This document shows positions 6,661 to 32,713 of a stretch of DNA of 64,000 nucleotides, piece by piece. The stretch is from Microbulbifer taiwanensis (GTDB lineage Bacteria > Pseudomonadota > Gammaproteobacteria > Pseudomonadales > Cellvibrionaceae). The stretch lies in assembly GCF_014904815.1 (NCBI RefSeq), contig NZ_JACZFR010000032.1, forward strand, positions 83,966 through 147,965. Direction: 5' to 3'. The position numbers and the translations under genes are program-made. Below the pieces are notes generated by a model that made no database searches, was not told where the DNA came from, and saw only the letters and a program-made list of their open reading frames with translations. Position 1 is the first letter of the stretch. Each line of letters opens with the position of its first letter.

Positions 6661-7113
6661 GACACCACCTCTGGTCGCCGACCTGTAGATGCGCCACTTA
6701 AGACCAACCGGCCGCTTCAATCGCGATGATGCCCTGGAAAAGGCCTGGAATCAGTAGTTAAACCACGCAGTGTATATCCAATCAAAATCAGGGCCCCAAT
6801 ATGGGGGACATTGACTTCAGCGGGGACATCGGCGCTACCGGATGACACTGAGCATGAGCCGTCCTGGGAGCGCCTCCATGACTACAGCGAAGGAGTGTCA
6901 GCTGCAACAGCGCAAGAAAACCTAAATTTATCGCCCGCAAAAAACTGACCAATCGTTGCCAGAGGAGTTGCAGCCCGATGAGATGTCGGACTGTCAAGTC
7001 CGCCCTCTTTCTGTCGCGCTCAACCCGGCACACCATCTAGAAATCTAGTAGCTTAGGTGCGGCGATTATTACTCGCATCTGACTATACACTGGCAAACAG
7101 TTACGAGACGCCT

Positions 7114-11922: not shown

Positions 11923-12303
11923 ATGAAAGTTCTAATTATCGGAAATATCGGCTCGGGTAAAAAAGCGATGGCCGAGCAACTGATTGGCCGAGAAAATATT
12001 GCATTGCTCCCTTTGGATGAACTGACCAACAGCTGTGAACAGACAGGCAACACGCTGGAGGAGGGCCTGAACATGCTGCGCAACGTGCTCGAAGATCATA
12101 CGGATTGGGTTGTTGAATGCGCAAACAGTGACCTAGCCGAAGTGGCGCTGCCCTATTGCGAAGAGCTCCGCTATATCAGTCAAGGAGTGACGGGGAATCC
12201 CAGCAACGACAATGCAGGGGAAGAGATCTACAGCTCCAAGCGCTACCGCGAGCTGTTCGAAAGCTTCGCCGGACTCAAAACGGAATACAACGGCGATACT
12301 TAA
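11923..12303 (+). CDS. Small P-loop protein, shortened and with altered Walker A
   Basis: A 126-residue protein paralogous to the next gene. Both resemble a family of ~165-residue P-loop NTPases usually labelled AAA-family or shikimate-kinase-like, with an N-terminal Walker A, LDEL, WV(I/V)E and CEELRF motifs and a C-terminal LF(D/E)SFxGxKxEY motif. Here Walker A reads GNIGSGKK: the Ser/Thr after the Lys, which coordinates Mg, is Lys14. About 35 residues between CEELRY and the C-terminal motif are also missing. The GGAGGT ribosome site is good and the frame is open, so it may still be made, but normal nucleotide hydrolysis is doubtful. Confidence 0.7.
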   Translation: MKVLIIGNIGSGKKAMAEQLIGRENIALLPLDELTNSCEQTGNTLEEGLNMLRNVLEDHTDWVVECANSDLAEVALPYCEELRYISQGVTGNPSNDNAGEEIYSSKRYRELFESFAGLKTEYNGDT

Positions 12304-12553
12304 AATACGGAACCTACCGCGGCTTCCAAGATGGAAGCCGTGTCTCTTTCAGTACCCTCCAAACCACCTAGCGAGAGTCAGACTGTCTAAGCTGAAAATC
12401 GGCACGAAAAGCCCCATCAAAATAATGCAATTGAGGCACAAGATGGCGTAACGGCCGGTCTGCACGGTTAACGGCAGAACCAGCATAACGACAACATATA
12501 CCGACGCCTAAATTACAAACGACAGAAGCAGAAATTACGCGGAGGTGCCAGTC

Positions 12554-13024
12554 ATGAGAATCCTGATTATCGGATGTACTGGATCCGGAAAAAGCGCAAT
12601 GGCTCAACGCCTGGTCGGGCTAAAAGACATTGCTTGGTTATCCCTGGACGAACTCTACTGGGACAACAAGGCCAATGGAAAATACCTAGTAGACAGTCTC
12701 AGCGCCCTTTACGAGTTTGCGGAGTGGAATGAGAATTGGGTGATCGAGGGCTGCCAGTGCGATCTCGTTCAGGCAGCGATGGGCTTCTGCGAAGAACTGC
12801 GCTTCATGAACCCTGGGTGTGAGGCATGTGTAAGCCGCTGCATAAACAAGCCTCGGAATAACAAGCATAGAGATGAGACCAGTAAGGAAGAAACGCCGCT
12901 TGATCGGATCATTGCTTCAGTTGGACAGTATGAATACAGGCGGGATGGTTTCGGCCTTGACAAGCACAAGGCGCTGTTTGACAGCTTCGTCGGAGCGAAG
13001 AAGGAATACACAGTGGTGATTTGA
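12554..13024 (+). CDS. Small P-loop NTPase (shikimate kinase-like family)
   Basis: A 156-residue protein with an intact Walker A, GCTGSGKS at residues 7-14. It has LDELYW near 35, WVIEGC near 60, CEELRFMNPG near 80 and LFDSFVGAKKEY at the C-terminus, the pattern of small gammaproteobacterial AAA/shikimate-kinase-like proteins of unknown substrate. I place the start at ATG 12554, nine bases inside the longest frame, because GGAGGT is well spaced and homology to the 11923 paralog begins there. A tandem duplication with a 250-base gap explains the pair. A nucleoside or small-molecule kinase is possible, but nothing here identifies the acceptor. Confidence 0.8.
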   Translation: MRILIIGCTGSGKSAMAQRLVGLKDIAWLSLDELYWDNKANGKYLVDSLSALYEFAEWNENWVIEGCQCDLVQAAMGFCEELRFMNPGCEACVSRCINKPRNNKHRDETSKEETPLDRIIASVGQYEYRRDGFGLDKHKALFDSFVGAKKEYTVVI

Positions 13025-13239: not shown

Positions 13240-16200
13240 CTATGGCTTGACTTCTACGGAGGTGCGATACCTGGACTCAGAGCTAGTCCCTCCCCCCACT
13301 AGTCCCACTGCCGCCCTTAAAGTAGTTAATAGCCCTCCTCCATATCGGCCAAGCTGCCCCCCCCCTGCGCTTGGAAGGGCCGGTCGGGAAAAGCTATATG
13401 AGCTATCCCAACCGAAGCCACCGCCGAAACCGCTAAATCCCCCTAGCGGCAGCAGGTTTCCGCTTTGGTCAGCAAAGTAGCCGACAGGAGGTAGGCCTAT
13501 ATCGCCGCCGTCACCGGGTACAGATTCGATATTGCTGCGACCGGTACGCCTATCCATTCTCGATACAGTCGGATCATAAGCGAGAGACTCCCCCCCTTGA
13601 AGATCCACTGGACGCGGCTCTAAGTGCAGCAAACCGTTCACAAAAGCAGACGATGGCACTACTGCGACCCCCGGTGTATGGAGCATATCTCCATTCGTAT
13701 AAGCGGTTGTCTGTATATTCATTATTCTCTGCTGGCATTCAGGGCCACTACCTGGGACGCATTTCAGGTTAACAATCGGTCCGAAAGGCAACTGGCCTTT
13801 AGCGAGGTTAGATGCCTGTACCCCAATACCTACCTCAGACTCCATGCCCACGTCGTCGGGTGCATATTTACTGGTAAATCCAAGCTTGAGCGGTTCGAAC
13901 CCAATCCCCCCTGAATCCAGCTGACCATTCAATACACTGGCGCCCACTCCTACTCCATATCGATTACCGGTTCTAGTATCGGCAGAAAATACAGTTCCGC
14001 TGAATCCAGTGACAGAATACTCAAAACCCAGAACTTTATAGTTTCCCCTGGCCAGAGGGAAACCGACATAATCGAAGTCCAATAGCGCTGTGCCCATTGC
14101 CATGCCGCCGGGGTTGTCACTTGGTTCTAGCACCTTGACATTTTGTGTAACGGGGTCAAGACCGCTGCTGTCATTGAAGACAATCGGGTTGTTCCAAGCA
14201 TAGTGATACGGGTTGGCCTTGATCGCGGACCGAGGAATTGCCAGCGGATCCCGCTGCAGGAAACGACCGATTTCAGCATCATAAACGCGCGGACCCATCC
14301 GGTACAATTTGTCGTACATACGACAACCGCCACTAGCAGGAAGCGGGTTGCAGACGTCCGTACCGTGCCAGCGGCGCTGGTTCACCGCTGTGTGGCCGGG
14401 TTCAATGCGTTCAGTCGGTTTTCCGTAGGGGCTATATGAACTGAAACTCGACTCAAGGCCAGCATCATCCAGAGTAGTATTGGCTGAATTGGTTTGGAAA
14501 CCGGCATAGTAAAGCTCTGAAGCCTCAGTGGTACCGCGAAGCGAGGCGCCACTGGGCAAGGTACTTTCCCAGATTACGCTTTCTCCATTTTCCCCGCCTC
14601 GGCGCTGCCCCACCGATCCAAGTTGGAACATCGTTTCTCCGAGTGCGTGATCTCTGCGCTCGCTGACACTGCCGTCACCAGCGTAGCGATAACTGATCTG
14701 CTCATTGAGCGTTAGCTTTATTTTCGTAATCTCATTCAAATCGTTATACCAAAGTTGCCGTTCAGCGTTGCTAAGCGGATCTCGATACTTGACGAGATTA
14801 CCCCGCCGATCGTACTCAAAAGTACAAAGTTCGTTCGATACTGTCGACTGCTCGGGGCCAGATTCGAAGCCGATTTCATAGCGACAAATTTTGTCCATAT
14901 CGTCTTGCCGGGGAATGAAACGCGTATAAACACTCGAATCCTGGGAGTGGTCGACCGTATCTTGTAAATTTCCCAATGAGTCGTAGGCATACTCATAATC
15001 ATGAGTCCAAGAATTGTTCAGGGTATCCTTTTGCTTGAATCCTATAAGTTGATTCAAGTCGTTGTACCAATAACCTTGATGTATGCTACCTGAGGCAACC
15101 GCAGTGAGCGCCAGCTTGGACTCCACGCGTTCGCTAGTGACGCTTTTCAGGCGTCCCAGGTAGTTTCCAAAGTGAATGCGGCGGATGGGCCCATCTCCAG
15201 CAGCCACTCCCGGAAGAGTCTCGTAAACGTACTCGAGCCGACGATGGCCGCTGGTTCCATATTGGAACTCCCTAACTGAGCTATTACCGAGTACCGACTT
15301 GAGAGGGCGCCCCCACGGATCCATGGTCACAATATTTTTCAACGTCGATGAAATCAATCCAAAGTTGTACTCGGCCGCGCGCACTCGACCAGCGCTGTCA
15401 TAGCGAAAATTGATAAGCTCTTCCGCCATATCGGTCGCGCTGGAGCGACGCTTCTGCCCACCTATGCGAGACAGGCCGTCGTACTCCCACTCCACCTCCG
15501 ATATCAGGCTCGCACCCATAGAATGCCGGGTCATTGACCTGCGGCCAAATGCATCGTACTCAAATTCGACGATTGGCGATTGACTTCTCTCTATCGCGCG
15601 TAGATGTCCCGCACCAGTCTGCCCATCTCCTATATAAGAGTAACGGGCTCCCCAGATGTTGGGGGTCAGCCTGAACAACCCGTCGTCTGTGAGAAGTTCC
15701 CAGCGCTTCAGCCTACCGAATCCGTCGTGCTCATACCCCTTCCAACTCACGCCAAGTTCGGCATTGACGGAGGCCTGCCCCACTTTATTCATATTTCCCC
15801 ATTCATCGTAACGGAAATGAATAGGTTCTATTCCATCGCTGGCGAACAGGGTTGTCCGGCCCAGACCATCGTGTTCATACTGCCAAGTCAACGCCTGCCC
15901 CGGGAAATTCAGTTCCTCCGTATCCCGGTAGCGGGAAACATACTGGAGATTTCCGAACTGATCGTAATCGAGACGCATAAGGTCCCGGGCGTTATCTTTC
16001 CCCGACAGCCAACTTCTACGCTCAGCCAGCTGTCCAGTTGCACCATAGATACTGACCTCCATGGAAATATCCTGTGGATCATCAGATGCGAGGGAATACG
16101 GGGAGATCGAGATTTTCTTGCGCTGCCCCATTTGAAAAGTCATCAGCGAGCAATGGCTAATCAGTTCACGGCCTCCATCGGTTACAGGGAATACGTAACT

Positions 16201-19200
16201 GGTGGACGGCGTGCCAATCTCGATCGTTTCTTTCTCAATAACTTTCTCTACAAGAGGCGGACTCTTCTGTACACCGGGTGCAGTAACTACACAGAATGGG
16301 TCGCTACTCAGATCTGCATGGTGGTACGTGGACACCAACTCATCTTCTTTCTCGCCGACTACAAATGGATGATTGATATGGCTTACACGGCCCTGCCCAT
16401 CGTATTCAGCACTCCACACAGCCAACCTGGCGTCGCCGTAGTCCGGGTCTTCTCCCAAATACTTGTCAATCCGGGCCAGGCGACCAAATATATCAAAGCG
16501 TTGTTCGGTCCAAAGCTCCCCATCGACAGCTGTGCCCTGAGCATAGTCTTCCAGAGGATACCACTTTTCAAAGCGACGCAATCTCAGCTTTCTCCCAGCA
16601 TGGTCCGGGCTGTCCTCACCTAGATACTCGATCGCGCTGATAATTTGCGGTGCTCCACCGGAATGTCCGGGACTGGATATCGCGGTGGTTGTGCGTCGCC
16701 CGTAGCGGTCGTAACCAAAGAGAGTGCTGACATTGGTATTGAGATCAGTCAGCGACGCCAGCCTGTAACTGCCTGTCTCGTAATTCATTGCCTCCCTCTT
16801 TGCAAAGTTGCTGACGTCGGATGCCCTGACACTCCGGCGAACCGGGACCATCTGGAAATTATCGTAGTCGATCTCCGTAGTCCGAACCACGCTTTTTGTA
16901 CTGATCGGGTTGTGGTTTCTGGTCGTAACTCTCAATGCTTGGCCATAAACGTTGCGATACTCAACAGCTCCTTCATTGACACTGCGCAAATATGTGGGGC
17001 TCGACGGAATTGTCCCATTATGGGTCCTAAAACGGGTTTCTATTGTCTCGACATAGGGGAACAATCGGTATTCCCCAGCCACTTCCTGTTCGCTCCCTTC
17101 GTAGTAAAAAGTTTTTTCCCTTTCGACCTTACCTGAACAGTCATCTACAGTTAATTTGGCCAATAGGTTCAACGGCTGGAATTCCTTATCCTTCCATTGA
17201 TCATGGTTAGACTGGGCGTACTCATAGTGGGTGCAGAAGTCATCTTCTGCATCGCGGTAATCTCCCTGATTCTTGACCCGCAGCGGTCTTCCTCGATCGT
17301 CCCATTCCTCTACGAGGGTCTGACGCTTAACGTTGCGAAGGTAGGGATCGACAATGTGGAAGCTTTCGCTGTGATCTCTGGCCAAGTACGCCGACGCCTC
17401 GAACTCACGCTCACTGCGAACCACCAGGATACCCTGGTCGGCACAGGTTCTGGATGCAACGGGAGTTTCTGCCTGACCTATTCCCCCGTAGGGGAAATCG
17501 AGCCGCTCGCATCGCCCGTTGTCGTAGTGTTCGGGCGGCAGGTCGTCCCAGCTCGGCGGATAAAGGTATGCTTCGATGGTATTGTCATTGTTGCCGGTAT
17601 AATAAACATCACCGTCAAAACTTCCGGTCATATATTGCATTAGCAGGTCCCGGGCGCTGAAGAAGTATCCTTCGTAGCTTCTTACCTGGTCGCGGGTTCC
17701 GACCAGCCAATCGCGCGTTATCGGGTCAAAGCTGTTGTTACGGCGGATTACGACCTGCCCCTTCCCCTTGACCTGCCCCAGTTGTGTGCCCGACGTTTGG
17801 GTCTTGCCGCGCACTTCCGCGGTATAGAGATAGCCTGTGGGCACAAACCGCTCCGTGTAGGTATCGTAGCGCATTGCGTTGTCACCGTAGGCATAGTAGG
17901 TTGGCTCCTGCAGTTTTTCTCCCGGCGCGCCCAGGCCCCCTATTGGTCGGCTCCACTCCAGCACAATTTCTGCAAATGGCACCTGATGTTTGCCCCAGGG
18001 GTCTCGCTTGGCATTGGTATATCGGTATTCCATGCCCGCACCGAATCCGTCGGTAACGCGAATCAGCTTGCCGGCATTCCATAAGCCCCTGTCCTCAACG
18101 CTCCCACCAGTACCGATGATTACCGGTTTTCGGATACGCAGCTCGCTGCCGACAATACGAGCTCGATCTGGGAGGCCGCTGCCGGTGACATCAACCAGCA
18201 TCTCCTGCACTCTCGCACTGTCATCGCAACCGGCATCGCTGTCAAAGGTGCCCTTGGACGACTTCTCGGCAACATGGTAATTGACCATTACTCGGCCACC
18301 CGTCCCCAGGCGACTGGCAGAATCCGGCAGGCCATCCCCATTTCGATCCATCCAGTTTGCATAGCTCACGATAGACGGGTTCTGTGGCGACGGTGTCTGC
18401 GCCGGGTCGTTTAGGTGGTGGGGATGGCGCCGACCAGAAGCGTTGCAAACGGGCAGACGCGCCAGCTGCTCTGTTCTCCCAGCCTGAGCGTGTACACGTT
18501 GATCGAGGAAGCCGTCGCCGGTGCCCAACTGTGCGCCACCGCTGCTGTGCAGTAGGTCCGGAAAGCCATCCCCATTCGCCTCTACTAGGCCGCAAACCCG
18601 AAGGGTCCTACGCTCATTGACCCCTTCCTCGCCGTCGCTGGTCCAGCGCTGGACACCGCCACAGGCGCCGATCGAGTTCACTAGCGGAGCTCGGGACTGC
18701 GCGAACAGTCTGCCACCGGTAATCGATTGCGGCCCAAGGCGCGCCCCGGCGACATTGTAGTGCACATTCAGCGCGCGTTTCGGGGGCGTGTTAATGCCCC
18801 GAGTAAAGCCCTGCCAACGCACAGACAAGTCCTCAACATAACAGTTGTAGCCATCAGTGGGTTTCAGGTCGCGGCGACGACCACCGTACCACGAGTAGCA
18901 ATCCCCATACGCAGATAGTTGGAAGCCAGTACACTCTACAGCGCCATCGGAATAGCAATCGAGAAATCGACTGTGGCTCTGCGACATCTGCTGCTCAATG
19001 AGAGTGCTATCGCCTTGGGGCTTTGGTAATACCACTGGAGCCACACTGGATCTATAGTGTTCCCACGGCGGCTCTGCCGACGCGGAAAAAACATCCGGTT
19101 CGCAATCCTGGCCGAATAGGCCCAATGCCCTGCACTCTGCATCGGGAATAGATTTCTGTAGGCTCTTCGGCGTCCAGCCGCCAACGAATTGAAAGCCCTG

Positions 19201-21321
19201 AGGCCAATCGATACTCACCAAGTCGGGATAGCTGTCGCCATTGATATCCCTGGTGTCAATAACGACGTAGGAATCAGACTTCTGGTCCAGGCTCCAGGTA
19301 ATGTCAGCGGCAGTATTTCTCTCCCAGGCGCAGGACGCCAGTGGCATTGAAAGAGGATCCAGCACGTCGAGGTCAGTGCAGAAGTTCCCTAAATTCCATC
19401 CAAAATAGTCAAACGCCCTGGCCTGAGCCAACTCCATACCAGACAGGGTCCAGGACAACGGAAATCGGTCGCCGGAAATCCAGCCGTTATCGATGGTCAG
19501 ATTACTTTCATCCAGCCTCACCTTCTCCCGCCATTCTTCAACCAAGTGGTCCACTGGTATACGGGTCTTCATCCAGTAAATGGGATAGTCGCCGCTGGGG
19601 CCGAACTCCGGGGAAGTATCCTGCCGGTGGCTGGGTGGCGTATTGATGTAGGCCACCCATTCACCGGGAGTTCGGGCATCCACAAGATCCAGGCGGCCGT
19701 CCCCGTTCAAATCCTGCAGGCGAACATAATCCACAGAGGAAGTAGCCAGCCCATCCGATTCGGCGACATCCGTGGTGTAACGCAGATTGAGCGGTAGCTT
19801 GCCACCGCCAACCTCGCTCATGTCGAAATTCCCTTCGCTGAACAGGTTCACCGACTCTTCAAAGTCCAAACTGGAATCCGTGGATCGGTTGCGAGCGAGT
19901 TTAAGTTCGCCATCGTCAGTGCTGCGGTACACCAGATCGGGGAGGCCATCGCCAGTCAAGTCGACAAAAGCAGTCCAGCTCTTTTCCAACGTTGCCGCCG
20001 GGAAAGAAAACCTATGCCTGAGGCCTGGGGGAGTAGTGCTATGCGTCTCTTCAACGCTATAGGACCAATAGGCCCGGGTAATATCGGTATCCTCGGGCAG
20101 CTCCGGAGATACGCCGTCTGCGGTGGTTACCTGTTGACCAACGGCAGGCACAGTCACATATTCAACATCTGAGAAACTCGGCTTCATATCGGCCGGCAGC
20201 ACCGCCGGATCCATCCACTGCTCGTCGGGATCATAAGCCAAGGCACCGCCGCCATCCGTGAAATCGGCGTAGTCGTAGCGCGCCAGGGGCAATGGTGCGC
20301 CCGCTTCTCCTTCGCGACCGTGCCGATCGACACCGCGCAAACGCGGCTGCTTGAGATCCGGATCGACATCGTAGTCAAGTACCAGTTGCGCCTGGGAAAC
20401 CAACGGTACGGCACAGCCCTGGGATCGGGACAGCAAATCGATCCGCTCTAGCACCCGGGTGACCACCGTCGACTTATAAGAGTCGCCGGCGGAAGCCGCC
20501 GTACGGACGTCAAGGACGCCGTCTGCGATAGGACCACTCTCGCTATCCAGGCCCAATTCGCTGGGCTGCCGGTAAACCAGGTCTACCACGCTCGCCGGAC
20601 AGCTGGTCTGTTCGCTTCCCGGCAGATGGTTATAACGAAGCTGGTTCAGGCGAATCTCTACAGAACCCTCCTGGCTGGCAACGTCATAACCCAGTACTAC
20701 CCGGCTGTCGGACTTCCGTTCATACTCCATCGGAATACCAGCCAGTAGCCAGCGATTGAAAGACACAGCGTGATCAATTCGAACAAGATAATAGGTGTCA
20801 GGATTTGTACCGGCTATGCGCTCGAAGCGATATTCCATTATTCCATGGCGCAATACCCATAAATCGGGGCCTTCCCTGAGCAGCTCCGATCCCAGAGACC
20901 GATCCCTTGCCACATAGCGGCTTGCATCCAGCGAAGCTGGCACGAAGTCAATTGCTGCACCATTGATTGAGACATGGAGATTCAATGGGACATCGCCACT
21001 TTCCAATGGCAAACGGCCGGCTGGGGTCCTGCTTTCCCTGACGTAGCTCAAGGGGACCTCCCAACCCAGTCCGGCCGCTCCGGCGCGCGATCCGCCACCG
21101 TGGACAACACTCAAAGGCAACGGGAGGCCGACGCGCTCAGGCATTAACCCCAAGGGTAATGAAATTCCCGGGGTCGAGCTCCCGGGCACCGCATTGGTCG
21201 CTAGCGCGGCCTGAGGCTCCACAACCTGCGCGGATACCACACCGCAGCTGCTCGCCAGCCACACCAGCAGAAGCGCCACTCTCCTGGAGGCTCCGACTCT
21301 GAAAAGTTGATGCAAAACCAT
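13240..21321 (-). CDS. Giant exported SpvB/RHS-repeat protein with unique C-terminal domain
   Basis: A 2693-residue protein from ATG 21321, with an AAGGTG ribosome site. It has a signal peptide (hydrophobic stretch ending near VVSAQ) and an SpvB/TcaC-like N-terminal region (PGISLPLG... GLGWEVPLSYV). An FG-GAP-like region of about residues 380-1090 carries several DxNGDGxxD calcium-type motifs. RHS/YD repeats (YDxxGR) follow from about 1600. The conserved RHS core is RVYDAEIGRFLQRDP near 2348, closing at NDSSGLDP near 2388. The last ~300 residues are unique, Gly/Ser-rich and apparently beta-rich. RHS proteins form a shell around a C-terminal effector, often a toxin; I cannot name this one. No immunity-like gene follows: downstream comes the opposite-strand P-loop gene. 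Residues ~380-860 are homologous to the two proteins encoded upstream. Confidence 0.9.
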   Translation of the reverse strand: MVLHQLFRVGASRRVALLLVWLASSCGVVSAQVVEPQAALATNAVPGSSTPGISLPLGLMPERVGLPLPLSVVHGGGSRAGAAGLGWEVPLSYVRESRTPAGRLPLESGDVPLNLHVSINGAAIDFVPASLDASRYVARDRSLGSELLREGPDLWVLRHGIMEYRFERIAGTNPDTYYLVRIDHAVSFNRWLLAGIPMEYERKSDSRVVLGYDVASQEGSVEIRLNQLRYNHLPGSEQTSCPASVVDLVYRQPSELGLDSESGPIADGVLDVRTAASAGDSYKSTVVTRVLERIDLLSRSQGCAVPLVSQAQLVLDYDVDPDLKQPRLRGVDRHGREGEAGAPLPLARYDYADFTDGGGALAYDPDEQWMDPAVLPADMKPSFSDVEYVTVPAVGQQVTTADGVSPELPEDTDITRAYWSYSVEETHSTTPPGLRHRFSFPAATLEKSWTAFVDLTGDGLPDLVYRSTDDGELKLARNRSTDSSLDFEESVNLFSEGNFDMSEVGGGKLPLNLRYTTDVAESDGLATSSVDYVRLQDLNGDGRLDLVDARTPGEWVAYINTPPSHRQDTSPEFGPSGDYPIYWMKTRIPVDHLVEEWREKVRLDESNLTIDNGWISGDRFPLSWTLSGMELAQARAFDYFGWNLGNFCTDLDVLDPLSMPLASCAWERNTAADITWSLDQKSDSYVVIDTRDINGDSYPDLVSIDWPQGFQFVGGWTPKSLQKSIPDAECRALGLFGQDCEPDVFSASAEPPWEHYRSSVAPVVLPKPQGDSTLIEQQMSQSHSRFLDCYSDGAVECTGFQLSAYGDCYSWYGGRRRDLKPTDGYNCYVEDLSVRWQGFTRGINTPPKRALNVHYNVAGARLGPQSITGGRLFAQSRAPLVNSIGACGGVQRWTSDGEEGVNERRTLRVCGLVEANGDGFPDLLHSSGGAQLGTGDGFLDQRVHAQAGRTEQLARLPVCNASGRRHPHHLNDPAQTPSPQNPSIVSYANWMDRNGDGLPDSASRLGTGGRVMVNYHVAEKSSKGTFDSDAGCDDSARVQEMLVDVTGSGLPDRARIVGSELRIRKPVIIGTGGSVEDRGLWNAGKLIRVTDGFGAGMEYRYTNAKRDPWGKHQVPFAEIVLEWSRPIGGLGAPGEKLQEPTYYAYGDNAMRYDTYTERFVPTGYLYTAEVRGKTQTSGTQLGQVKGKGQVVIRRNNSFDPITRDWLVGTRDQVRSYEGYFFSARDLLMQYMTGSFDGDVYYTGNNDNTIEAYLYPPSWDDLPPEHYDNGRCERLDFPYGGIGQAETPVASRTCADQGILVVRSEREFEASAYLARDHSESFHIVDPYLRNVKRQTLVEEWDDRGRPLRVKNQGDYRDAEDDFCTHYEYAQSNHDQWKDKEFQPLNLLAKLTVDDCSGKVEREKTFYYEGSEQEVAGEYRLFPYVETIETRFRTHNGTIPSSPTYLRSVNEGAVEYRNVYGQALRVTTRNHNPISTKSVVRTTEIDYDNFQMVPVRRSVRASDVSNFAKREAMNYETGSYRLASLTDLNTNVSTLFGYDRYGRRTTTAISSPGHSGGAPQIISAIEYLGEDSPDHAGRKLRLRRFEKWYPLEDYAQGTAVDGELWTEQRFDIFGRLARIDKYLGEDPDYGDARLAVWSAEYDGQGRVSHINHPFVVGEKEDELVSTYHHADLSSDPFCVVTAPGVQKSPPLVEKVIEKETIEIGTPSTSYVFPVTDGGRELISHCSLMTFQMGQRKKISISPYSLASDDPQDISMEVSIYGATGQLAERRSWLSGKDNARDLMRLDYDQFGNLQYVSRYRDTEELNFPGQALTWQYEHDGLGRTTLFASDGIEPIHFRYDEWGNMNKVGQASVNAELGVSWKGYEHDGFGRLKRWELLTDDGLFRLTPNIWGARYSYIGDGQTGAGHLRAIERSQSPIVEFEYDAFGRRSMTRHSMGASLISEVEWEYDGLSRIGGQKRRSSATDMAEELINFRYDSAGRVRAAEYNFGLISSTLKNIVTMDPWGRPLKSVLGNSSVREFQYGTSGHRRLEYVYETLPGVAAGDGPIRRIHFGNYLGRLKSVTSERVESKLALTAVASGSIHQGYWYNDLNQLIGFKQKDTLNNSWTHDYEYAYDSLGNLQDTVDHSQDSSVYTRFIPRQDDMDKICRYEIGFESGPEQSTVSNELCTFEYDRRGNLVKYRDPLSNAERQLWYNDLNEITKIKLTLNEQISYRYAGDGSVSERRDHALGETMFQLGSVGQRRGGENGESVIWESTLPSGASLRGTTEASELYYAGFQTNSANTTLDDAGLESSFSSYSPYGKPTERIEPGHTAVNQRRWHGTDVCNPLPASGGCRMYDKLYRMGPRVYDAEIGRFLQRDPLAIPRSAIKANPYHYAWNNPIVFNDSSGLDPVTQNVKVLEPSDNPGGMAMGTALLDFDYVGFPLARGNYKVLGFEYSVTGFSGTVFSADTRTGNRYGVGVGASVLNGQLDSGGIGFEPLKLGFTSKYAPDDVGMESEVGIGVQASNLAKGQLPFGPIVNLKCVPGSGPECQQRIMNIQTTAYTNGDMLHTPGVAVVPSSAFVNGLLHLEPRPVDLQGGESLAYDPTVSRMDRRTGRSNIESVPGDGGDIGLPPVGYFADQSGNLLPLGGFSGFGGGFGWDSSYSFSRPALPSAGGGQLGRYGGGLLTTLRAAVGLVGGGTSSESRYRTSVEVKP

Positions 21322-22287: not shown

Positions 22288-23745
22288 TCACGGCGACGCT
22301 GGCAAGCCAGAGACGGGCCGTATACCTCTTGAATAGCCTCTCCAACGAGTCGACGAATCCTCAACCAAGCAATCGTAGCCGTCTCCGGGTTTCAGGTCTC
22401 CGCGGCGGCCGCCATACCAGGAGTAGCATTCCTGATACGCCTGAATTTCGAGCGCAGCGCAATACAAATTGCCGTTCTCGAAGCACCCGATATAACGATC
22501 ATATTCTTCCCGCAACTCCACTTCAATCTGTGTGAGTGAGTCGCTGTTTAACGACTCCGGCTTGGGTAACACTACCTCCCCAGGCCCCGGATGGAAACCC
22601 GCGTAGTGATTCCACGGCGTCTTGGCCGGCGCAACGAAGACATCCGGCTCACAGTCCTGACCAAACGGCTCCAGGTCTCGGCACTCAGGCTCCTGCACAG
22701 CAATCCGTAACTCCTCCGGCTCCCATCCTCTAACAAAACGAAATCCTGGCGACCACTCGACGCCGGCGACATCCAGAACGGCATCGTCGTCTACCCCGCG
22801 CAGGGCGATTATTTTATACGAGCGGGGAGAACCATCCACAGTCCAGGCAACGTCCTTCGAAGGTTTTCTTTCCCAAGCGCAGGCCTGCCCGGGATACTCC
22901 AGTGGAAAAAGCGGGCTCAAATAGCTACAATCGAGACTCAATCCGCTGAACTTGTAGGCCCTGGCCTCAGCCATCTCGATACCCGACAGCGTCCAGGAAA
23001 GCGGAAAGCGAGCGCCGGAGATCCAGCCATTCTCAAAGCCGCTCCCGCTATCACCCACTGAAACCCGTGCTCGCCACTCTTCAACCAGGTAATTGACAGG
23101 GGCCTCAATTTTCTCCCAATAAATAAGGGCGCTACCCCCGGAAGGCCTATTAAGATAGATGATCCAATGCCCTGGATTGCGGGCATCCACGACATCCGTT
23201 CTGCCATCGCGATTCACATCTTGCAAGCCGATATAGTCCACGGATGACATTGCGGTCCCTGAGGATCCGATAAGGTCAAATGAGATCTGAAGCTTTAGCG
23301 GTAATTTACCATTGCCAACCTCGCTTAGAACGAAGTTTCCTTCGCCAAACAAGTCAACAGGATCAGCGTATTCGTGCTCAGAAACGCTGCCAATATTCTC
23401 GCTCAGTCTTAAATCACCGTCTCTGTAAAATACCAGGTCTCGCCGCCCATCTCCTGTCATGTCGACAACGGCCGACCAGTACTCAGTTGCCACTGCCGGT
23501 GGAAAGTATACGGTGTGATAATAATAGTTTCCGTCTCCACCAGTAGTAGCAGACGCCCAATAAGAGCGACGCAGATCCTCAAAATTGACGCCCGAGTCTT
23601 CAACCTCGAGTTCCTGACCAATAGGCACTGCCAGTTCTTCCGACATATAATCGAAGTGGGTTCTGATCATTGCAGAGTAAGAAGGAGGCTCCACTCTCTG
23701 ACCTAAAACACCAATAGAAAGTAAGATTGGAACCAAAGAACTCAT
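22288..23745 (-). CDS. Stand-alone RHS-derived FG-GAP module protein (485 aa)
   Basis: Homologous along most of its length to residues ~380-850 of the giant RHS protein. It shares AVVDMTGDGRRDLV, GEGNF-LSEVGNGKLPL, WISGARFPLSWTLSG, FGQDCEPDVF and CYSWYGGRRGDLKP (matching segments differ slightly in the RHS protein). It has no SpvB domain, RHS repeats or core. It ends just after RWRGYSRGI, where the RHS protein carries on, with a short non-homologous tail. The N-terminus MSSLVPILLSIG is hydrophobic without a basic n-region and is shared with the next two genes. AAAGGAT gives a good ribosome site. It may be an exported Ca-binding partner of the RHS protein or a decayed paralog; the open frame favours a working gene. 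Confidence 0.75.
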   Translation of the reverse strand: MSSLVPILLSIGVLGQRVEPPSYSAMIRTHFDYMSEELAVPIGQELEVEDSGVNFEDLRRSYWASATTGGDGNYYYHTVYFPPAVATEYWSAVVDMTGDGRRDLVFYRDGDLRLSENIGSVSEHEYADPVDLFGEGNFVLSEVGNGKLPLKLQISFDLIGSSGTAMSSVDYIGLQDVNRDGRTDVVDARNPGHWIIYLNRPSGGSALIYWEKIEAPVNYLVEEWRARVSVGDSGSGFENGWISGARFPLSWTLSGIEMAEARAYKFSGLSLDCSYLSPLFPLEYPGQACAWERKPSKDVAWTVDGSPRSYKIIALRGVDDDAVLDVAGVEWSPGFRFVRGWEPEELRIAVQEPECRDLEPFGQDCEPDVFVAPAKTPWNHYAGFHPGPGEVVLPKPESLNSDSLTQIEVELREEYDRYIGCFENGNLYCAALEIQAYQECYSWYGGRRGDLKPGDGYDCLVEDSSTRWRGYSRGIRPVSGLPASP

Positions 23746-24072
23746 GATATATCCTTTATCTGATCTTTATAAAAAGCGCGCATCAGAGCGAGACTCATCT
23801 TTAAATTCAAGAGATGCTCAACCACTCTATATCGGTGACCAGTGCCATGGCATCCGGCAAAGAATCCGTTTGTAATAGCGCGACCGCCAATTTCTGTAAT
23901 AGACTTCCGGATCAATCTTGGCCCCAAATTGAGCTTCGATCTCAGATCGTCTATTTTCAGCCATAACCGACGACACTGGTCGACTAAAAACTGCTAGCGC
24001 AAAAAGTAATGTACGCTTCGAATTACTATAGAATCTCGGTTCCCGACCCGCCACCAACCTTAAGACCACAAC
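23746..24072. other. Gene-free stretch (about 330 bp) with a weak reading frame
   Basis: Between the two RHS-derived module genes. A minus-strand frame at 23827-24069 (80 codons) starts right after the upstream stop. Its segment RRSEIEAQFGAKIDPEVYY looks protein-like, but there is no ribosome site or recognised family, so I do not call it. It may be a remnant of a longer ancestral gene. Confidence 0.35.
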
Positions 24073-25539
24073 TTAATTTCCAAAGCCCGCAACATTGGAA
24101 ATGATAGTGAGGGATCCTCGCGGTAACTGCTGCTGGGCACGAATATTCCCTTGCCACCTCGTAGAAATGTCCTCGACCAGGCAACTTGATGGATGCGTGG
24201 GACTGAGGTCCCGACGAAATCCGCCGTACCAGGAATAGCAATTTTCGTACGCATCAATCGTGAACGGCGGCACCGGATTGCAATAGACCTCTCCATCATC
24301 GAAGCAAGTTGCAAACTTATCGTAGTTGTTTCGAACGACTTGCAATTCTGCTGGGAGATCCTCAAGCACCGATTCCGGCTTGGGTAGAACCACAAGACCG
24401 AGGTAATCCTGCTCCCAGGGCCTTCCTGCCTCAGCCCGGAACAATCCGGGCTCACAAATACCCTGCCGGCACTCCGGATTCTCCACGGTATTTTCAAGGT
24501 CTGCGGGTGTCAGACCAATGACCTGAAAACCCTGAGGCCATCTACTAGAAACAAGATCTACATAGCCGTCACCGTTTGCATCCGTGAGATCGAACACCAA
24601 GTCAAAAACAGTTGAGGAGCCAAGCTGCCACTCCAGATCGCTGGAAGGAAAGCGCTCCCAGGCACAGGCGGTACGCGACATCTGGACGGGATCCAGCGAA
24701 GTAACTGCCGTGCAGCTGTTTTGTACATTCCATCCCCAAAAGGCGTAGCCCCACGCCTCCGCTAACCGATAAGTCCCCGACAGAGTCCACGACAGTGGAA
24801 AGCGGGCACCGGAGACCCAGCCGTTTTTAAAGTCACCTCCATGGCCACCCACAGACACCCGAGAGCGCCACTCATCGACTCGCTGCTCGACCGCCAGCGT
24901 AAGCTTCTCCCAGTAAATTGGATACCCACCGGTGCCATGACCGGAGGGCATATTCATGTAGGCAATCCACTCTCCCGGGCTGCGAGCATCGACAATATCC
25001 AATCGACCGTCGCCGTTGAGGTCCTGCAGTCTCACATACTCCACTGTAGACTTACCGACACCCTTAGACCCAATGATTTCTGTGGAAAGAGTCAATTTTA
25101 ACGGCAAACTTCCATCGCCTACCTCACCCATTGAAAAATCGCCTTCACCGAATAAATCTATCGGCGCTAGATATTCTGGACGACTATTACTACCTATGTT
25201 GCGGCCAAGCTTAAGCTTACCATCTCTTTTGAATATGAGATCTCTGCGGCCATCCCCATCCATGTCGGCTACCGCCTTCCAGTATTTATCTACAGTCGCA
25301 GCAGGAAAATTAATACGGTGTTTATTAAAAGGACTACTGAAAATCGTCACGTTGGACCAGTGCGCCCGCTGCAGGTTATCGTCTTCGACACCAAAGTCGG
25401 CAACGGAAGGCGGACCGGCGGCTATTTGCTCAACAGTTCTGCTTGGTAGATTTACAGATTCCAAGCCGCTATAAGAAACAGCTTGAACTTCCTTCCCCAT
25501 GATTCCAACCGATAGCAAGATAGAAACCAGAGCACTCAT
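24073..25539 (-). CDS. Stand-alone RHS-derived FG-GAP module protein (488 aa)
   Basis: Second module protein, paralogous to the 22288 gene and to RHS residues ~380-860. It shares AVADMDGDGRRDLIF, LQDLNGDGRLDIVDARSPGEW, WVSGARFPLSWTLSG, CYSWYGGFRRDLSP and ends SNVAGFGN at the point matching YNVAG in the RHS protein. I prefer ATG 25539 (the second ATG of ATGACCATG): MSALVSILLSVG then aligns with the leader of the 22288 gene and leaves a GGGA ribosome site. Three DxDGDG/DxNGDG-type motifs suggest Ca binding. The break point, close to that of the 22288 gene, argues that this segment is a discrete module. Function unknown. Confidence 0.75.
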   Translation of the reverse strand: MSALVSILLSVGIMGKEVQAVSYSGLESVNLPSRTVEQIAAGPPSVADFGVEDDNLQRAHWSNVTIFSSPFNKHRINFPAATVDKYWKAVADMDGDGRRDLIFKRDGKLKLGRNIGSNSRPEYLAPIDLFGEGDFSMGEVGDGSLPLKLTLSTEIIGSKGVGKSTVEYVRLQDLNGDGRLDIVDARSPGEWIAYMNMPSGHGTGGYPIYWEKLTLAVEQRVDEWRSRVSVGGHGGDFKNGWVSGARFPLSWTLSGTYRLAEAWGYAFWGWNVQNSCTAVTSLDPVQMSRTACAWERFPSSDLEWQLGSSTVFDLVFDLTDANGDGYVDLVSSRWPQGFQVIGLTPADLENTVENPECRQGICEPGLFRAEAGRPWEQDYLGLVVLPKPESVLEDLPAELQVVRNNYDKFATCFDDGEVYCNPVPPFTIDAYENCYSWYGGFRRDLSPTHPSSCLVEDISTRWQGNIRAQQQLPRGSLTIISNVAGFGN

Positions 25540-25614
25540 GGTCATTCCCGTACTTTAATGAGATTTCAGTAATTCGATCGGTACGCCCAGGTTTCGAACC
25601 GGGCGCAACCGGGT

Positions 25615-26799
25615 CTATCTCGGGATAGGATCTGAACTATCACAAGATATGCTGCGATTATCGTAAATAGCGTTGCCGAAGTTGAACCCGACATTCTTTA
25701 CCTTGAAGAAGCCATCGGGCGCATGGTTACATATTTTGTTACGCAATACCGTATTGAACCTGGCAAAATCCCGATCATCGGTATTGCTTGCCTCCCAGTC
25801 TCCATCCCAACCAAACGAAGGATCGACATCGCTAATGTCCCACGGTCTGGAAACATTACTGTCTTTGTCGCAGTAGCCACTCAGGCTGTCGCCATCCCGG
25901 GACCCAACGTAAACCGCAGGCCTGGTAATCCAGGCATCCTGGTAGTAGAAAATGTTATCGCTGATCTCGTTATTTCTGACGCCGGTATAGCGGACCTCAC
26001 CGCGCTCTCCGCAATTTCTGTATAGAAAAACACCACCCAAAGTGACACCGGAAAACCAGTTCCTAGTAATCAGATTGTGCTCCGCACCATCGATCGATAA
26101 GACCTCACGGAAATTGCTGCTATCGTGGTGGAACTCATTATTCTCGACCACATTGTATGCAGCCTCTGCATCGATATACAGCGATGGGCCGCCTGCATTA
26201 TCGTGTTTAATACGGGAGTTCTTCAGGGTTGTGTGGGTCACGCCCTGCTCAATATACAGACTCACGCCACTACCGTTGACAATATCAAGATTATCGAAAG
26301 TAATTCCAGTCGGCGCAACCGACCTAAGCTCCCGAACATAATCCGGACCTCGCTCATTCTTATAGGTCGCCAACTCTTCATTTCCGATTCGATAAAACTG
26401 ACTGCGAACCCGCGTACTGCCCCTAACCTTGCAGTTTTTTATAGTCACATTCCTCACCGGCTCATGTGCGTAGTCATCCCCGGCACGAAACTTCGCCGAA
26501 GATACGAGCAAGGCGGGCTCTTCTTCCTTTAGTGCACCCAAAGGGGATATAGTGGCGCCATTACAGTCAAAAACCAAATGATTGGCCGCTGGACCGATAA
26601 AACGTAAAGATTTGGTCACCAGATCACCCGGCTGCAACTGCACGCTGCAACTGACATTAGCAAAACGATTTTCCCAGGTATCCGGGTCGTCCTCATCGAT
26701 CACGATAGGCTCAGCCAAAATATCCGATATCTCCTCACTGGAGCACGGAGGGTTCTTAATTACACCAATGGAAAGCAAGAGCGGAACAATAAAACTCAA
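25615..26799 (-). CDS. Exported right-handed parallel beta-helix protein
   Basis: About 394 residues. The body is a series of short strand-turn repeats (VRNVTIKNCKV, GITFDNLDIVNG, THTTLKNSRIKHD, YNVVENNEFHHD, HNLITRNWFSG) typical of pectate-lyase or NosD-like beta-helices. Such folds occur in polysaccharide lyases, epimerases and adhesins, and no catalytic set is clear enough to choose. I place the start at TTG 26799: it gives MSFIVPLLLSIG, aligning residue for residue with the leaders of the two module genes downstream. Ser/Asp/Asn-rich turns and scattered Cys suit an exported protein. Same strand as the module genes with gaps under 100 bases on this side, so it may share a transcript with the 24073 gene. 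Confidence 0.75.
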   Translation of the reverse strand: MSFIVPLLLSIGVIKNPPCSSEEISDILAEPIVIDEDDPDTWENRFANVSCSVQLQPGDLVTKSLRFIGPAANHLVFDCNGATISPLGALKEEEPALLVSSAKFRAGDDYAHEPVRNVTIKNCKVRGSTRVRSQFYRIGNEELATYKNERGPDYVRELRSVAPTGITFDNLDIVNGSGVSLYIEQGVTHTTLKNSRIKHDNAGGPSLYIDAEAAYNVVENNEFHHDSSNFREVLSIDGAEHNLITRNWFSGVTLGGVFLYRNCGERGEVRYTGVRNNEISDNIFYYQDAWITRPAVYVGSRDGDSLSGYCDKDSNVSRPWDISDVDPSFGWDGDWEASNTDDRDFARFNTVLRNKICNHAPDGFFKVKNVGFNFGNAIYDNRSISCDSSDPIPR

Positions 26800-26904
26800 A
26801 TCGAGCACCAACTTCTGTTAATAGCTTCAAAAGTGAGAGCGTGGAGAACACTAAAGCGCATTCACCACACCCGCACATTACATCCAGCCGATTATCTAGT
26901 TAGT

Positions 26905-27219
26905 TCAGGAAACACTAATCGAGCCGACAACTTCAGTATCACCTTCGCATTCACCATTACCGTAAATCCGAACTGACTTACCCGACAAGAGGGCAGACAA
27001 AGCCACTGTATGCTGAACCTCATTTGTTATAACGAATCGATTATCTTGATTCGTTCCGATACACGGTGAATCATCAACGCTGGCACTGATGTAAACTGTA
27101 TTATTAGCGCCACCTAAACTTGTGGTTTTCAGATACGTGACAGTTCCATCGTAGGGCCCACCTGCAAAAGCAGACATGGAAGTTAGCAATAGCGAAGAAG
27201 CAAAAAAAATCTTTTTCAT
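26905..27219 (-). CDS. Small exported protein (unnamed family)
   Basis: A 104-residue protein with a clear signal peptide, MKKIFFASSLLLTSMSAFA, cleaved near AFA-GG. The mature part is about 85 residues, beta-rich, with two Cys that could form a disulphide (SPCIGT and NGECEG). The pattern of a GTVTYL start, a VALSALLSGKSVRIYG helix-strand and a Cys near the end is common in small gammaproteobacterial exported proteins of unknown role. A GGAAGG ribosome site is near the ATG. No neighbour gives a function. Confidence 0.7.
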   Translation of the reverse strand: MKKIFFASSLLLTSMSAFAGGPYDGTVTYLKTTSLGGANNTVYISASVDDSPCIGTNQDNRFVITNEVQHTVALSALLSGKSVRIYGNGECEGDTEVVGSISVS

Positions 27220-27783
27220 AAACCTTCCAGTAAGTTAAAAGAAATTTACAAACGTTGTTCCATAATAATGGAAGTAGAAATTTACCAAACAATATACCTT
27301 CGAGACAAAGCTGTTAACGACAAATACATGCCTATTGTGACAACCATGAAAACGACATCAAAATTTTTCTATAGAAACTACTAAAAGTTTACGTAAGTTA
27401 TTAGAACCTATCTCACCACACATTTTCTCTTGGTCCGCATTGCAGCATAAAATTATCCAATACAACACTACAGTACTATAATTTTAATCCTAGGAAGTAC
27501 CCATGAGCAGAAACTCACAACTACTAATATGAACGTTTTCTAGAAAAAAAGTGGAAGTCAATTGTCGAACAATTAACTAGAAATTATCTTTGAAAGCCAG
27601 CCCGAAGCGAGGCCTGAGCTATAAGCGAACATAGCTTGAAAGTAAGCAAAGCTTATAGACAAGGCTTCTTAACCCCAGAGAATGGGAGGTATTTGCAAGG
27701 GGTCTTAGTTTCACCAGAAACTAGGCATTCGATCAGACAGAAAACTGAGGAGGCCACAAATAGCCTCCTGATTAGGAATGTTT
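27220..27783. other. Gene-free AT-rich stretch (about 560 bp)
   Basis: No gene. It holds the promoter region of the 26905 gene, the terminator at 27741-27769, and an 8-bp inverted repeat (CTATAAGC at 27619-27626 with GCTTATAG at 27651-27658) of unknown meaning. Confidence 0.5.
27741..27769 (-). terminator. Rho-independent terminator after the 27784 gene
   Basis: On the minus strand AGGAGGC pairs with GCCTCCT around an 8-base loop, followed by CAGTTTTC. It lies 15 bases past the stop of the small exported-protein gene. Stem, position and short T-run fit an intrinsic terminator. Confidence 0.65.
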
Positions 27784-28161
27784 CTATGATTCTTCGTAGG
27801 CAATAGAGTCGGAATTGCGGTGCACCGCAACAGCTGTACACTCACCACTTGCATTCCACTCAAAGTAAAGAGTGTTGTCGGCGTCGATAGAGGATATTAC
27901 TTGCATCATCTCGGCGCTGGTTGTGGAGCAGCTCTCGGTTTCTCCCAGAATATCCCTGGCGAAACAGGTGGCGGAGCTGCCGAACCTGCCTGTGTAGACG
28001 GTACAACCGATATACTGGATTTTGTCCTGACTTTGGCGCACCGCTCGCAGCGCACCGTAGGCGCTGTTGTCATTGATCACCACTTCAGGAGTGAAGCTGC
28101 TGCCGGCCAGGGCGGCGGTGGAAAACACCAGAGTTGCGGCAGTAGCCAGTATTTTGTTCAT
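27784..28161 (-). CDS. Small exported Cys-containing protein (intact paralog of 648 pseudogene)
   Basis: A 125-residue protein with signal peptide MNKILATAATLVFSTAALA and AAGGAG ribosome site. The mature part has four Cys in the pattern IGC-(10)-C-(11)-C-(24)-C, suggesting two disulphides in the periplasm or outside. It is the intact counterpart of the broken gene at 648-1022: both share GALxAxRxS, IGC, and the end of the helix-strand I-A-N-LxF-W-EC. I recognise no named domain. Whether it helps the downstream lipoprotein lyase (same strand, after 28182) is unknown, as it is the later gene in that direction with a 170-base gap. Confidence 0.7.
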   Translation of the reverse strand: MNKILATAATLVFSTAALAGSSFTPEVVINDNSAYGALRAVRQSQDKIQYIGCTVYTGRFGSSATCFARDILGETESCSTTSAEMMQVISSIDADNTLYFEWNASGECTAVAVHRNSDSIAYEES

Positions 28162-30631: not shown

Positions 30632-31684
30632 TCACGATAAAGGATCCTCCGCGCGCTGCAGGCTTCGTCGAATCCCCATAAACCGCTTTCGATACTCAGA
30701 TGGTGTCATCCCCACGCGGCGGCGGAACAGCCGGCGAAAAAAACTGGCATCTTCGTAGCCCAACTCGAGGGCGATCATTTCTATACGCTGGCTGTCTGAT
30801 TCCAGCATATGCTTAGCCTCTTCCACCCTCAGTGTGTGCACATACTCTATTGGGGACATGCCCGTCGCCTTACGGAACCGACGCTTGAAAGACCGTTCCT
30901 TCAAGCCGCTTTTGTCAGCCATGGCTTGTATGATACCGGGCTCAGAATAGTGAGAAGACAGCCATACCTGCACGTCGGCTATAGTTCGGTCTTCCATCTG
31001 CCTAGGCCGAGAAGCGGCAGCAAAGGGAAGTTGCCCGTGGTCGTGCCAGTTGAGCAGATAGAGTCGCGATAAGTTACGCGCCTCTTCCTGACCAAAGAAG
31101 CGTGCCACCAGATACAGCACCATATCCTGCCAGGAAATCCCACCACCGCATGTAATAATGCGCTGTTCAGGGCCCGACACCACCAACACCTGCTCCCGGT
31201 GAACTCGGATCTGCGGGTAGGCAGCTTGTAAGTTTTCCGCGTAGGCCCAGTGAATGGTTGCATTCAAGCCGTCCAGCAGCCCACTCTCGGCCAGCAAAAA
31301 AGTTCCACTGCAGGCCGAAGCGATGACCGCCCCACCCTCGAAACGGTCCCTCAACCATGCGCACTCCACAGGGTACCGGTTGCGCAGTGTTTTACTTGGC
31401 GGCAAATAAAGATCTGGAATACAGACAAGGTCCGGCTCCAGCCCCTCCGATAACGTCGCATCGGGCCGGAAGGGAACCTGACCATCGCTAACGAAGAGGT
31501 TGCTGGAATCGGCGGCGAGCAGTACAGGCTCCACCCACTGCTCTCCCAGTTCACCGCGGGTTACCAGGGGCCAATCGCGACCGACAGAAGCCAATACATC
31601 GCGCAACCCATATATCGTGGAAGCAGTAGCCTCGGGCAACACAAGAATAGCTACCCTCAACGGCCCGGAACGCTGATCCCTCAA
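30632..31684 (-). CDS. GATase1/PfpI-like AraC-family regulator, upstream of lyase
   Basis: About 350 residues, paralogous to the 9032 regulator. N-terminal PfpI-like domain (VAILVLPEATAS, IASACSGTFLLAESGLLDG), C-terminal AraC DNA-binding region (LKERSFKRRFRKATG, then GYEDASFFRRLFRRRVGMTPSEYR). I favour TTG 31684 because AAGGG lies eight bases upstream and the 9032 paralog begins at the same point; a longer frame from TTG 31714 is possible. It is followed after 58 bases by the heparinase-like gene, which it may control. The next upstream gene is an alpha/beta hydrolase, also on the minus strand. The effector is unknown. Confidence 0.87.
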   Translation of the reverse strand: MRDQRSGPLRVAILVLPEATASTIYGLRDVLASVGRDWPLVTRGELGEQWVEPVLLAADSSNLFVSDGQVPFRPDATLSEGLEPDLVCIPDLYLPPSKTLRNRYPVECAWLRDRFEGGAVIASACSGTFLLAESGLLDGLNATIHWAYAENLQAAYPQIRVHREQVLVVSGPEQRIITCGGGISWQDMVLYLVARFFGQEEARNLSRLYLLNWHDHGQLPFAAASRPRQMEDRTIADVQVWLSSHYSEPGIIQAMADKSGLKERSFKRRFRKATGMSPIEYVHTLRVEEAKHMLESDSQRIEMIALELGYEDASFFRRLFRRRVGMTPSEYRKRFMGIRRSLQRAEDPLS

Positions 31685-32713
31685 AATTAGTACCCTTAAT
31701 CCGCCAAATGCCAAAACAACTAGTAAACGGCTACCGCATTGCAGCCACTCAACGCTGATAACAAATAATTGAGCACTCGTCCTGCCTGACTACATTTCTT
31801 ACTCCAACGGCAAAGGAATCGTACAAGCTACTTTCCATGTAAAACTTTAAACCCTACTTATTATTTGTATTTGTTGCCATTCTCTCAGAAAACCAATGAG
31901 AATGGTCGCGCGATTCGGGTCTCCAACAGGCCATAACTGCCAACAAGCGATATACCTGGATGGCTCCGAATTCTCTGCTCCGCACCTTCCAGTGAAGAAT
32001 AGAGTTGATAAGCTCACAGGAAGCCCAAAAGATAAAACGATGGCCTGCCAACTCCGATTGCACTGAGAAAGCCAATCCTACCCACCATGATCCAGTGTTC
32101 GCAGGACCCAACAAGGACCGATAGATCACCGACACCAACGAATTAAGGCACTCGCAACGGCTTTCAGTTTTTTTTAATTGATTTACTGTATATAGTATCT
32201 CCACAGTCGGAGTCCAGAACTCTAATCCAGCGCACTCAAACCCTTCAATCCTGCTCCACACTTTCCCTATACTAAAAACCTCCCCTGCTACTTCTATTAT
32301 CTTTGACTTCGCTTTCAATTTCCCAACAGGCTGAATAAATTCAACAGTAAAATCCTATCATTTACAGCATACAATCGAACGATACCTGACTGTTCATTCT
32401 CCAACTCCTACATTGGACTATTATCGGAATATCTTGGGTAGCCAGAAGAATCCCCAATCGAAGAAATTGCTTCGGACTCGGAAGCTACTTACCAACTAGT
32501 TGAAGCAACCGATAGAAGCCATAGATCTTTGTCATACTGAAAGAAAAAAAATAAGCTAAACCAGATAATATTGGGCGTGTACGTGATCCAGCTGGAGAAT
32601 CAGATAGTTACTACATCCAACTTGAGCGAGAGCACTTAGATATTAAGCATGCATCCACAATCGACATAAAAACCGCCCCTGAAAAACAACTAGATATATA
32701 TACCCGACATATA
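31685..32713. other. Gene-poor stretch (about 1.0 kb)
   Basis: A 154-codon minus-strand frame at 31854-32318 has no ribosome site, unusual composition (many Trp, Cys, Arg) and no recognisable motif, so I treat it as non-coding. The remainder is AT-rich. The promoter of the PfpI-AraC gene should lie at the low end. No insertion sequence or repeat recognised. Confidence 0.4.

Follow-up and report, generated by a model that had tools for sequence, protein, structure and literature searches.

Two free-standing counterparts of a predicted propeller segment of an RHS protein, and a leader shared with a beta-helix neighbour, in Microbulbifer taiwanensis

Why should one internal segment of a very large RHS protein also be encoded twice, close to the RHS gene itself, as a protein in its own right? 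The question is raised by a stretch of 64,000 nucleotides of Microbulbifer taiwanensis DNA (contig NZ_JACZFR010000032.1 of assembly GCF_014904815.1, positions 83,966-147,965 of the forward strand; hereafter the window), in which an RHS gene is preceded by two genes, here called gene 1 and gene 2, whose products of 485 and 488 residues correspond to part of the RHS protein. The order of transcription, on the minus strand, is a gene for a beta-helix protein, gene 2, gene 1 and the RHS gene, and the gaps between them, calculated from the coordinates, are 75, 327 and 966 nucleotides. This arrangement is real and unusual; its functional link to the RHS protein is a prediction, which is weighed below.

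One RHS segment in two free-standing proteins

Both genes are intact open frames on the minus strand. A first-pass annotation, made from the DNA letters, had claimed that two stand-alone proteins match one internal part of the RHS protein and no other, and this was borne out by alignment, in which both products align to RHS residues ~380-866 only, at 47-50% identity (gene 1 49.5%, gene 2 47.0%, and 48.4% between the two). The local match of gene 1 covers RHS residues 389-844, and the similarities are far above chance, with expectation values (E) of 1.3e-124 for gene 1 against the RHS segment and 1.5e-128 for gene 1 against gene 2. The annotation was also right that both proteins end near the same place (RGI/YNVAG): the 485-residue protein stops just past the RHS motif RGI and the 488-residue protein just past NVAG. 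The frame of gene 2 extends over 24073-25545, giving 490 residues from its first ATG and 488 from the ATG at 25539.

Regarding domain content, the RHS protein matches Pfam RHS_repeat (36.1 bits, cut-off 22), NCBIfam Rhs_assc_core (41.9 bits, cut-off 32.5, residues 2337-2388) and, ahead of the RHS shell, Pfam FG-GAP_3 (30.6 bits, cut-off 26.9), which suggests a propeller fold by homology only. FG-GAP_3 was also matched above its cut-off by gene 1 and gene 2 (30.4 and 32.9 bits), and just under it by two metagenomic relatives, P0003 and P0005 (25.3 and 25.5 bits). Pfam TcdB_toxin_midN, with a cut-off of 24.8 bits, was not reached by gene 2 or P0005 (16.2 and 16.7 bits) and had no match in gene 1 (E up to 0.1) or P0003 (E up to 0.05). 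Genes 1 and 2 encode exactly eight cysteines each, 8/8 of which are aligned in all five known sequences of the segment; from these cysteines and the position of the leader described below, disulfide bonds are predicted in the segment proteins.

The divergence among gene 1, gene 2 and the RHS segment is large: the proportion of nonsynonymous differences (pN) was 0.36-0.37 and that of synonymous differences (pS) 0.76-0.82 (0.36 and 0.82 for gene 1 against gene 2), and the synonymous rate (dS) was saturated and could not be computed. No pair has a 16-mer or an identical run of 14 nucleotides in common, and nucleotide identity among the copies is ~0.54, rising to 0.82 in the best 60-nucleotide window, with no long tract of high identity. 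Since pN is lower than pS, no identical 14-nucleotide run is shared with the RHS gene and the cysteines are conserved, decay or recent copying is unlikely for either gene; the two look old and are probably under selection.

A leader common to two folds, and relatives elsewhere

Genes 1 and 2, P0003, P0005 and the beta-helix protein have in common a leader of ~14 residues, M-S-x-[LI]-[VI]-[PS]-x-L-L. The free-standing proteins start M-S-[SA]-L-[VI]-[PS]-I-L-L in 4/4 cases, and the beta-helix protein starts MSFIVPLLLSIGVI. Over the 13 residues after the start, the beta-helix leader is identical to that of gene 1 at nine, four of which are encoded by different codons, and to that of gene 2 at six. 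When the leaders were shuffled, a rough test in which composition alone is kept, the chance of such identity was 0.0001 for gene 1 and the beta-helix gene, 0.0004 for genes 1 and 2, and 0.007 for gene 2 and the beta-helix gene. The window and the rest of the contig were also scanned: among 3611 open window starts scored against the gene 1 leader, the three genes reached 57, 45 and 42 and the next best 20, and the best of 5302 starts in the other 84 kilobases (kb) of the contig scored 27 against any of the five leaders. The first-pass annotation had given both proteins leaders and ribosome sites of their own; leaders were found in both, and a site, AAAGGA, was found 6 nucleotides ahead of the ATG of the 485-residue gene. 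That the beta-helix neighbour begins in the same way had gone unremarked in the annotation.

The leader has a hydrophobic core and is likely an export signal, because it is placed where the more distant beta-helix relatives P0025-P0028 carry ordinary-reading signal peptides in the alignment. The proposal that the two proteins are secreted is supported at the level of sequence by the leader, the 8/8 cysteines, pN below pS and the two metagenomic partners, and we grade them as probably exported. The annotation's further idea, that they could be co-factors, decoys or regulators of RHS assembly, is a conjecture. A literature search on the leader gave nothing of use, and we regard its sharing by different folds as new here.

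The beta-helix protein was modelled by AlphaFold2 with a predicted local distance difference test score (pLDDT) of 90.2, residues 1-10 being the least confident part (mean 50) and residues 11-20 averaging 77. Its predicted fold resembles polysaccharide lyases and epimerases, the top PDB match being an alginate lyase (template modelling score 0.49 by query length, 13% identity). Its eight cysteines are invariant in 11 aligned sequences. N-termini were read for 18 of its 60 matches: its own and five others (the metagenomic P0020-P0024, with an acidic residue at position 3) have a similar short, hydrophobic, proline-bearing leader, ten are ordinary or of another kind, P0019 begins inside the domain and P0029 is a fragment.

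A search with the gene 1 protein through ~5.8 billion proteins (lengths ~267-849 residues, 7996 candidates scored) gave four matches, namely the two of the window and P0003 (474 residues) and P0005 (493 residues), both of them free-standing. The RHS segment, searched against proteins of ~1481 residues and up (to 4713; 7989 candidates scored), found its own RHS protein and 11 remote proteins of at most 35% identity, with no other RHS protein carrying the full segment among the candidates scored. Each search thus scored ~8000 candidates, and RHS pieces of 850-1480 residues fell outside both.

Gene 1 is nearest to P0003 (54.7%) and gene 2 to P0005 (58.4%), and all other pairs lie at 47-53%. An unrooted tree of the five rows joined gene 1 with P0003 (94/94) and gene 2 with P0005 (100/99), as did the tree made without the leader (93/95 and 100/99), and gene 1 still paired with P0003 when P0007 and P0011, or P0007 alone, served as outgroup (99/97 and 94/95). 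The pairs share further marks: gene 1 and P0003 both have a degenerate third acidic loop, whereas the loop is intact in the other pair and mostly kept in the RHS protein; gene 2 and P0005 have a five-residue deletion in common; and P0003 and P0005 show the same two kinds of C-terminal end as genes 1 and 2. Because each gene pairs with a metagenomic partner and the pairs share such marks, we infer that both free-standing subfamilies predate the M. taiwanensis genome, and P0003 and P0005 show that free-standing forms exist beyond it. Regarding a mobile origin, gene 1 had no match in 72,556 plasmid and 50,697 phage records, 0/43 pattern matches in viral contigs were confirmed, and PHROGs held no family for genes 1 and 2 or the beta-helix protein; in the named genome collection, 0/4 and 0/589 pattern matches were confirmed.

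What the free-standing copies may do

In Tc toxins the TcB gate is defined as a six-bladed beta-propeller that binds TcA and gates the cocoon; this propeller shuts off the RHS cocoon and is the part that docks to TcA (PMC8765631, PMC6868009). Residues 41-702 of the RHS protein of the window align with residues 36-576 of P0007 (28%, E 4.75e-35), and columns 87-356 of the segment alignment show homology, over some 240 columns, to the FG-GAP region of P0007, from Corallococcus, and P0011, from a metagenome (hhalign 99.2%, E 2.2e-19). P0007 and P0011 match Pfam TcdB_toxin_midN above the cut-off and SpvB below it, and have predicted C-terminal toxin domains. The cysteine-rich last third of the segment lies outside the match to these two proteins, and the main matches between the RHS protein and P0007 are interrupted from RHS residue 702 to 878. 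No toxin family was among the Pfam and NCBIfam matches of the RHS protein; as a side observation, its C-terminal ~300 residues (13240-14154) are without one, an immunity gene having been sought only by reading the list of open reading frames.

The reading that we favour, with a probability of roughly 0.4, is that genes 1 and 2 encode free-standing, long-established, exported versions of the RHS propeller segment. Whatever partner or ligand the RHS propeller has, these copies are predicted to bind it too, as subunits that either assist or compete. Old separate copies of the FG-GAP segment (a predicted beta-propeller), probably under selection, would each be directed to export by their own short leader, and the exported copies would bind the docking partner or the cocoon mouth, given that the TcB propeller closes the RHS cocoon and docks. 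The position of both genes upstream of the RHS gene on the same strand counts for this reading, which rests on likeness to TcB, not on membership.

Several observations weigh against it. In the RHS protein no Pfam SpvB match was found at E 0.1, the search of its own genome included, and Pfam TcA_TcB_BD, the TcB-binding domain of TcA, had 0 matches in this genome and also 0 in 14 control genomes, so that this search had no positive control. We therefore call the RHS neighbour TcB-like, not a member: the RHS and FG-GAP marks are present, but SpvB gave no match. AlphaFold2 gave no usable model of gene 1 (pLDDT 34.5 from a 5-sequence alignment), leaving the propeller fold unconfirmed, and the segment had no significant match in the PDB. 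A public gene prediction of gene 1 (P0002, 452 residues) begins at residue 34, without the leader; and, unlike a textbook Sec signal, the first ten residues contain no lysine or arginine in gene 1, P0003, P0004, P0005, P0018 and P0020-P0024. With outgroups, gene 2, P0005 and the RHS segment were not resolved, the pairing of gene 2 with P0005 was unsupported and the root stayed open. The linkage of P0003 and P0005 to an RHS gene was not seen, their longest contigs being 6134 and 9672 bases. There is no sign of contact between the copies and the RHS protein or of a common partner, and 966 nucleotides separate gene 1 from the RHS gene.

The segment also appears very rare in genomes. It was found whole in 0/143 other genomes of the family; it was absent as a whole from the order sample (weak partial matches in 2/389 genomes, E 3.1e-4 and 9.7e-4, over 57 and 85 columns) and from the class sample (1/368, E 7.5e-4, 83 columns), and the phylum sample had it in 0/397. 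These samples overlap, and at most 5, 4, 4 and 3 candidates per genome, respectively, were scored in the rows listed. The annotation had named stops or frameshifts, or a lack of relatives, as what would speak against it. On this the outcome is divided: the frames are intact here, but the other family genomes searched have no such gene, and the support from relatives consists of the two metagenomic proteins.

The strongest alternative, itself a serious possibility although short of an even chance, is that the products of genes 1 and 2 are exported FG-GAP proteins of an ordinary kind, which act at the surface or bind sugars in cooperation with the beta-helix protein and are related to the RHS segment by ancestry alone. 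Their leader is common with the beta-helix protein and not with the RHS protein, and the lyase- and epimerase-like fold predicted for that neighbour, with alginate lyase as the top match, fits such a role. Both matches from outside the window are free-standing, as said, and the sole PDB sequence matches of the segment, which fell short of significance (E 0.32 and 0.48), are to PVL, a propeller lectin. However, the one RHS protein found to contain this segment, cysteine-rich part included, is encoded immediately downstream of the two genes, and linkage to a beta-helix gene is unseen elsewhere too, the longest contigs of P0003 and P0005 differing in length from the contigs of all five beta-helix relatives that bear the leader. 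Between the favoured reading and this alternative the data do not decide.

It is unlikely that in this lineage the free-standing form is the original one and that the RHS protein took up a copy of it in place of an older, shorter FG-GAP part. The break in the RHS-P0007 matches between 702 and 878, with the cysteine-rich part unmatched, would agree with such an uptake, as would the finding of free-standing forms elsewhere and not of the RHS form; but homologous FG-GAP blades are present at the same place in RHS relatives, which makes the step from RHS to free-standing the simpler one, and the tree root does not decide. Decaying remnants of former RHS genes are very improbable: the copies do lack all other RHS parts and have no counterpart in the 143 other family genomes searched, but this explanation is disfavoured by the open frames, pN well below pS and the 8/8 kept cysteines, and further by the two metagenomic partners, which resemble the copies in length and ends, and by the two larger intergenic gaps, in which no trace of the segment or of RHS could be recognised (best E 0.21); further copies of the segment were likewise missing from these gaps and from positions 26812-28160, where nothing scored better than E 0.21. 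Least probable of all is a role as silent cassettes, whose recombination with the RHS gene would vary its propeller: segment-length copies do share the strand of the full gene and lie close to it, but the lack of long identity tracts (no shared 16-mer or 14-nucleotide run, identity ~0.54) disfavours gene conversion, and the copies have start codons and leaders of their own, the leader being without an RHS counterpart.

A bolder form of the favoured reading, which we consider doubtful, is that an undescribed portable export leader marks exported proteins of several folds, two of which would be detached RHS propellers that could replace one another as docking or gate subunits of the RHS cocoon or serve as decoys for it. 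If true, this RHS system would have gate subunits in free form. The leader, found on proteins of two folds, is itself a candidate for a non-textbook export signal and is open to direct test.

The locus and its likeness to known systems

The features discussed are collected in Table 1. Promoter- and terminator-like sites, sought as operon signals, were no commoner than in shuffled sequence.

Table 1. Features of the RHS locus in window coordinates.
Feature	Position	Strand	Basis or remark
RHS protein, 2693 residues	13240..21321	-	RHS_repeat, FG-GAP_3, Rhs_assc_core; Sec-like signal peptide by eye
RHS residues ~380-866, segment also existing free-standing	18724..20184	-	Part homologous to the P0007/P0011 FG-GAP region
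Gene 1, free-standing propeller segment (predicted), 485 residues, partner of metagenomic P0003	22288..23745	-	
Gene 1 leader, residues 1-15	23701..23745	-	
Gene 1 first FG-GAP acidic loop, DMTGDGRRD	23428..23463	-	
Gene 1 second FG-GAP acidic loop, DVNRDGRTD	23185..23220	-	
Gene 1 third loop, degenerate	22771..22797	-	
Gene 1 cysteine-rich last third with CYSWYGG, 6/8 conserved cysteines	22336..22683	-	
Gene 2, free-standing propeller segment (predicted), 488 residues, partner of metagenomic P0005	24073..25539	-	
Gene 2 leader, residues 1-15	25495..25539	-	
Beta-helix protein, 394 residues, TTG start, different fold, same leader	25615..26799	-	Pfam Beta_helix, AlphaFold2
Beta-helix gene leader, residues 1-15	26755..26799	-	

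Just upstream of the beta-helix gene lie two small open reading frames (26905-27219 and 27784-28161) with ordinary-looking signal peptides, in a stretch of low GC content (0.41 at 27-28 kb). Elsewhere in the window, two adjacent small frames (11923-12303 and 12545-13024) have similar P-loop-like starts (VLIIG/ILIIG...GSGK), the second with a sub-cut-off AAA_18 match; three proteins of the same layout (4439-6313, 7057-8856 and 33955-36036) combine a GDSL-like lipase part, below cut-off, with a proprotein-convertase P-domain; two AraC-type regulators (9032-10177 and 30632-31714) carry a DJ-1/PfpI domain; and a PilY1-type propeller protein (38991-42389) has a von Willebrand-like part below cut-off. 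On other contigs of the genome (C114 and C91), the proteins L038 (2526 residues) and L039 (2153 residues) match SpvB above the cut-off, and the genome may thus hold further TcB-like or RHS-type proteins.

Compared with FG-GAP or integrin-like propeller proteins and lectins, genes 1 and 2 have the same FG-GAP acidic loops, whereas they have no significant match to a solved structure and their closest relative found is the RHS segment. The 394-residue neighbour has the predicted fold of right-handed beta-helix polysaccharide lyases and epimerases, but its identity is at most 13% among the 50 PDB matches listed, and it bears the leader instead of an ordinary signal peptide.

With TcB subunits and TcdB/TcaC-type RHS toxins, for which a signal peptide, SpvB and an integrin-like propeller are given as the mark of the TcdB/TcaC pathway (PMC3482391), the locus shares an RHS core and a homologous FG-GAP segment, the free-standing proteins being that segment. 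The differences are that the propeller is there part of one chain, whereas here it also occurs as two separate genes, each with its own leader; that the RHS neighbour has no SpvB match and no toxin domain that could be found, and its segment a cysteine-rich addition; and that the M. taiwanensis genome gave no TcA match, in the search without positive control described above. The relation to these toxins is one of likeness, not of membership.

In the accessible portions of the papers covered by a small search of open-licence literature on RHS and propellers, neither free-standing propeller segments nor a shared leader was mentioned. The standalone forms described for polymorphic toxins are orphan cassettes for C-terminal toxin domains (PMC3482391), and orphan Rhs toxins are also mentioned in excerpts of other literature. 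Like such cassettes, genes 1 and 2 are partial copies of a large toxin-type gene; unlike them, they represent a segment of the N-terminal half, have their own start and leader, and are long diverged with no trace of recombination. If the favoured reading is true, it would suggest that an RHS cocoon can have its docking or gate part supplied as an exported subunit of its own, in contrast to the C-terminal toxin cassettes as far as these are described in that source.

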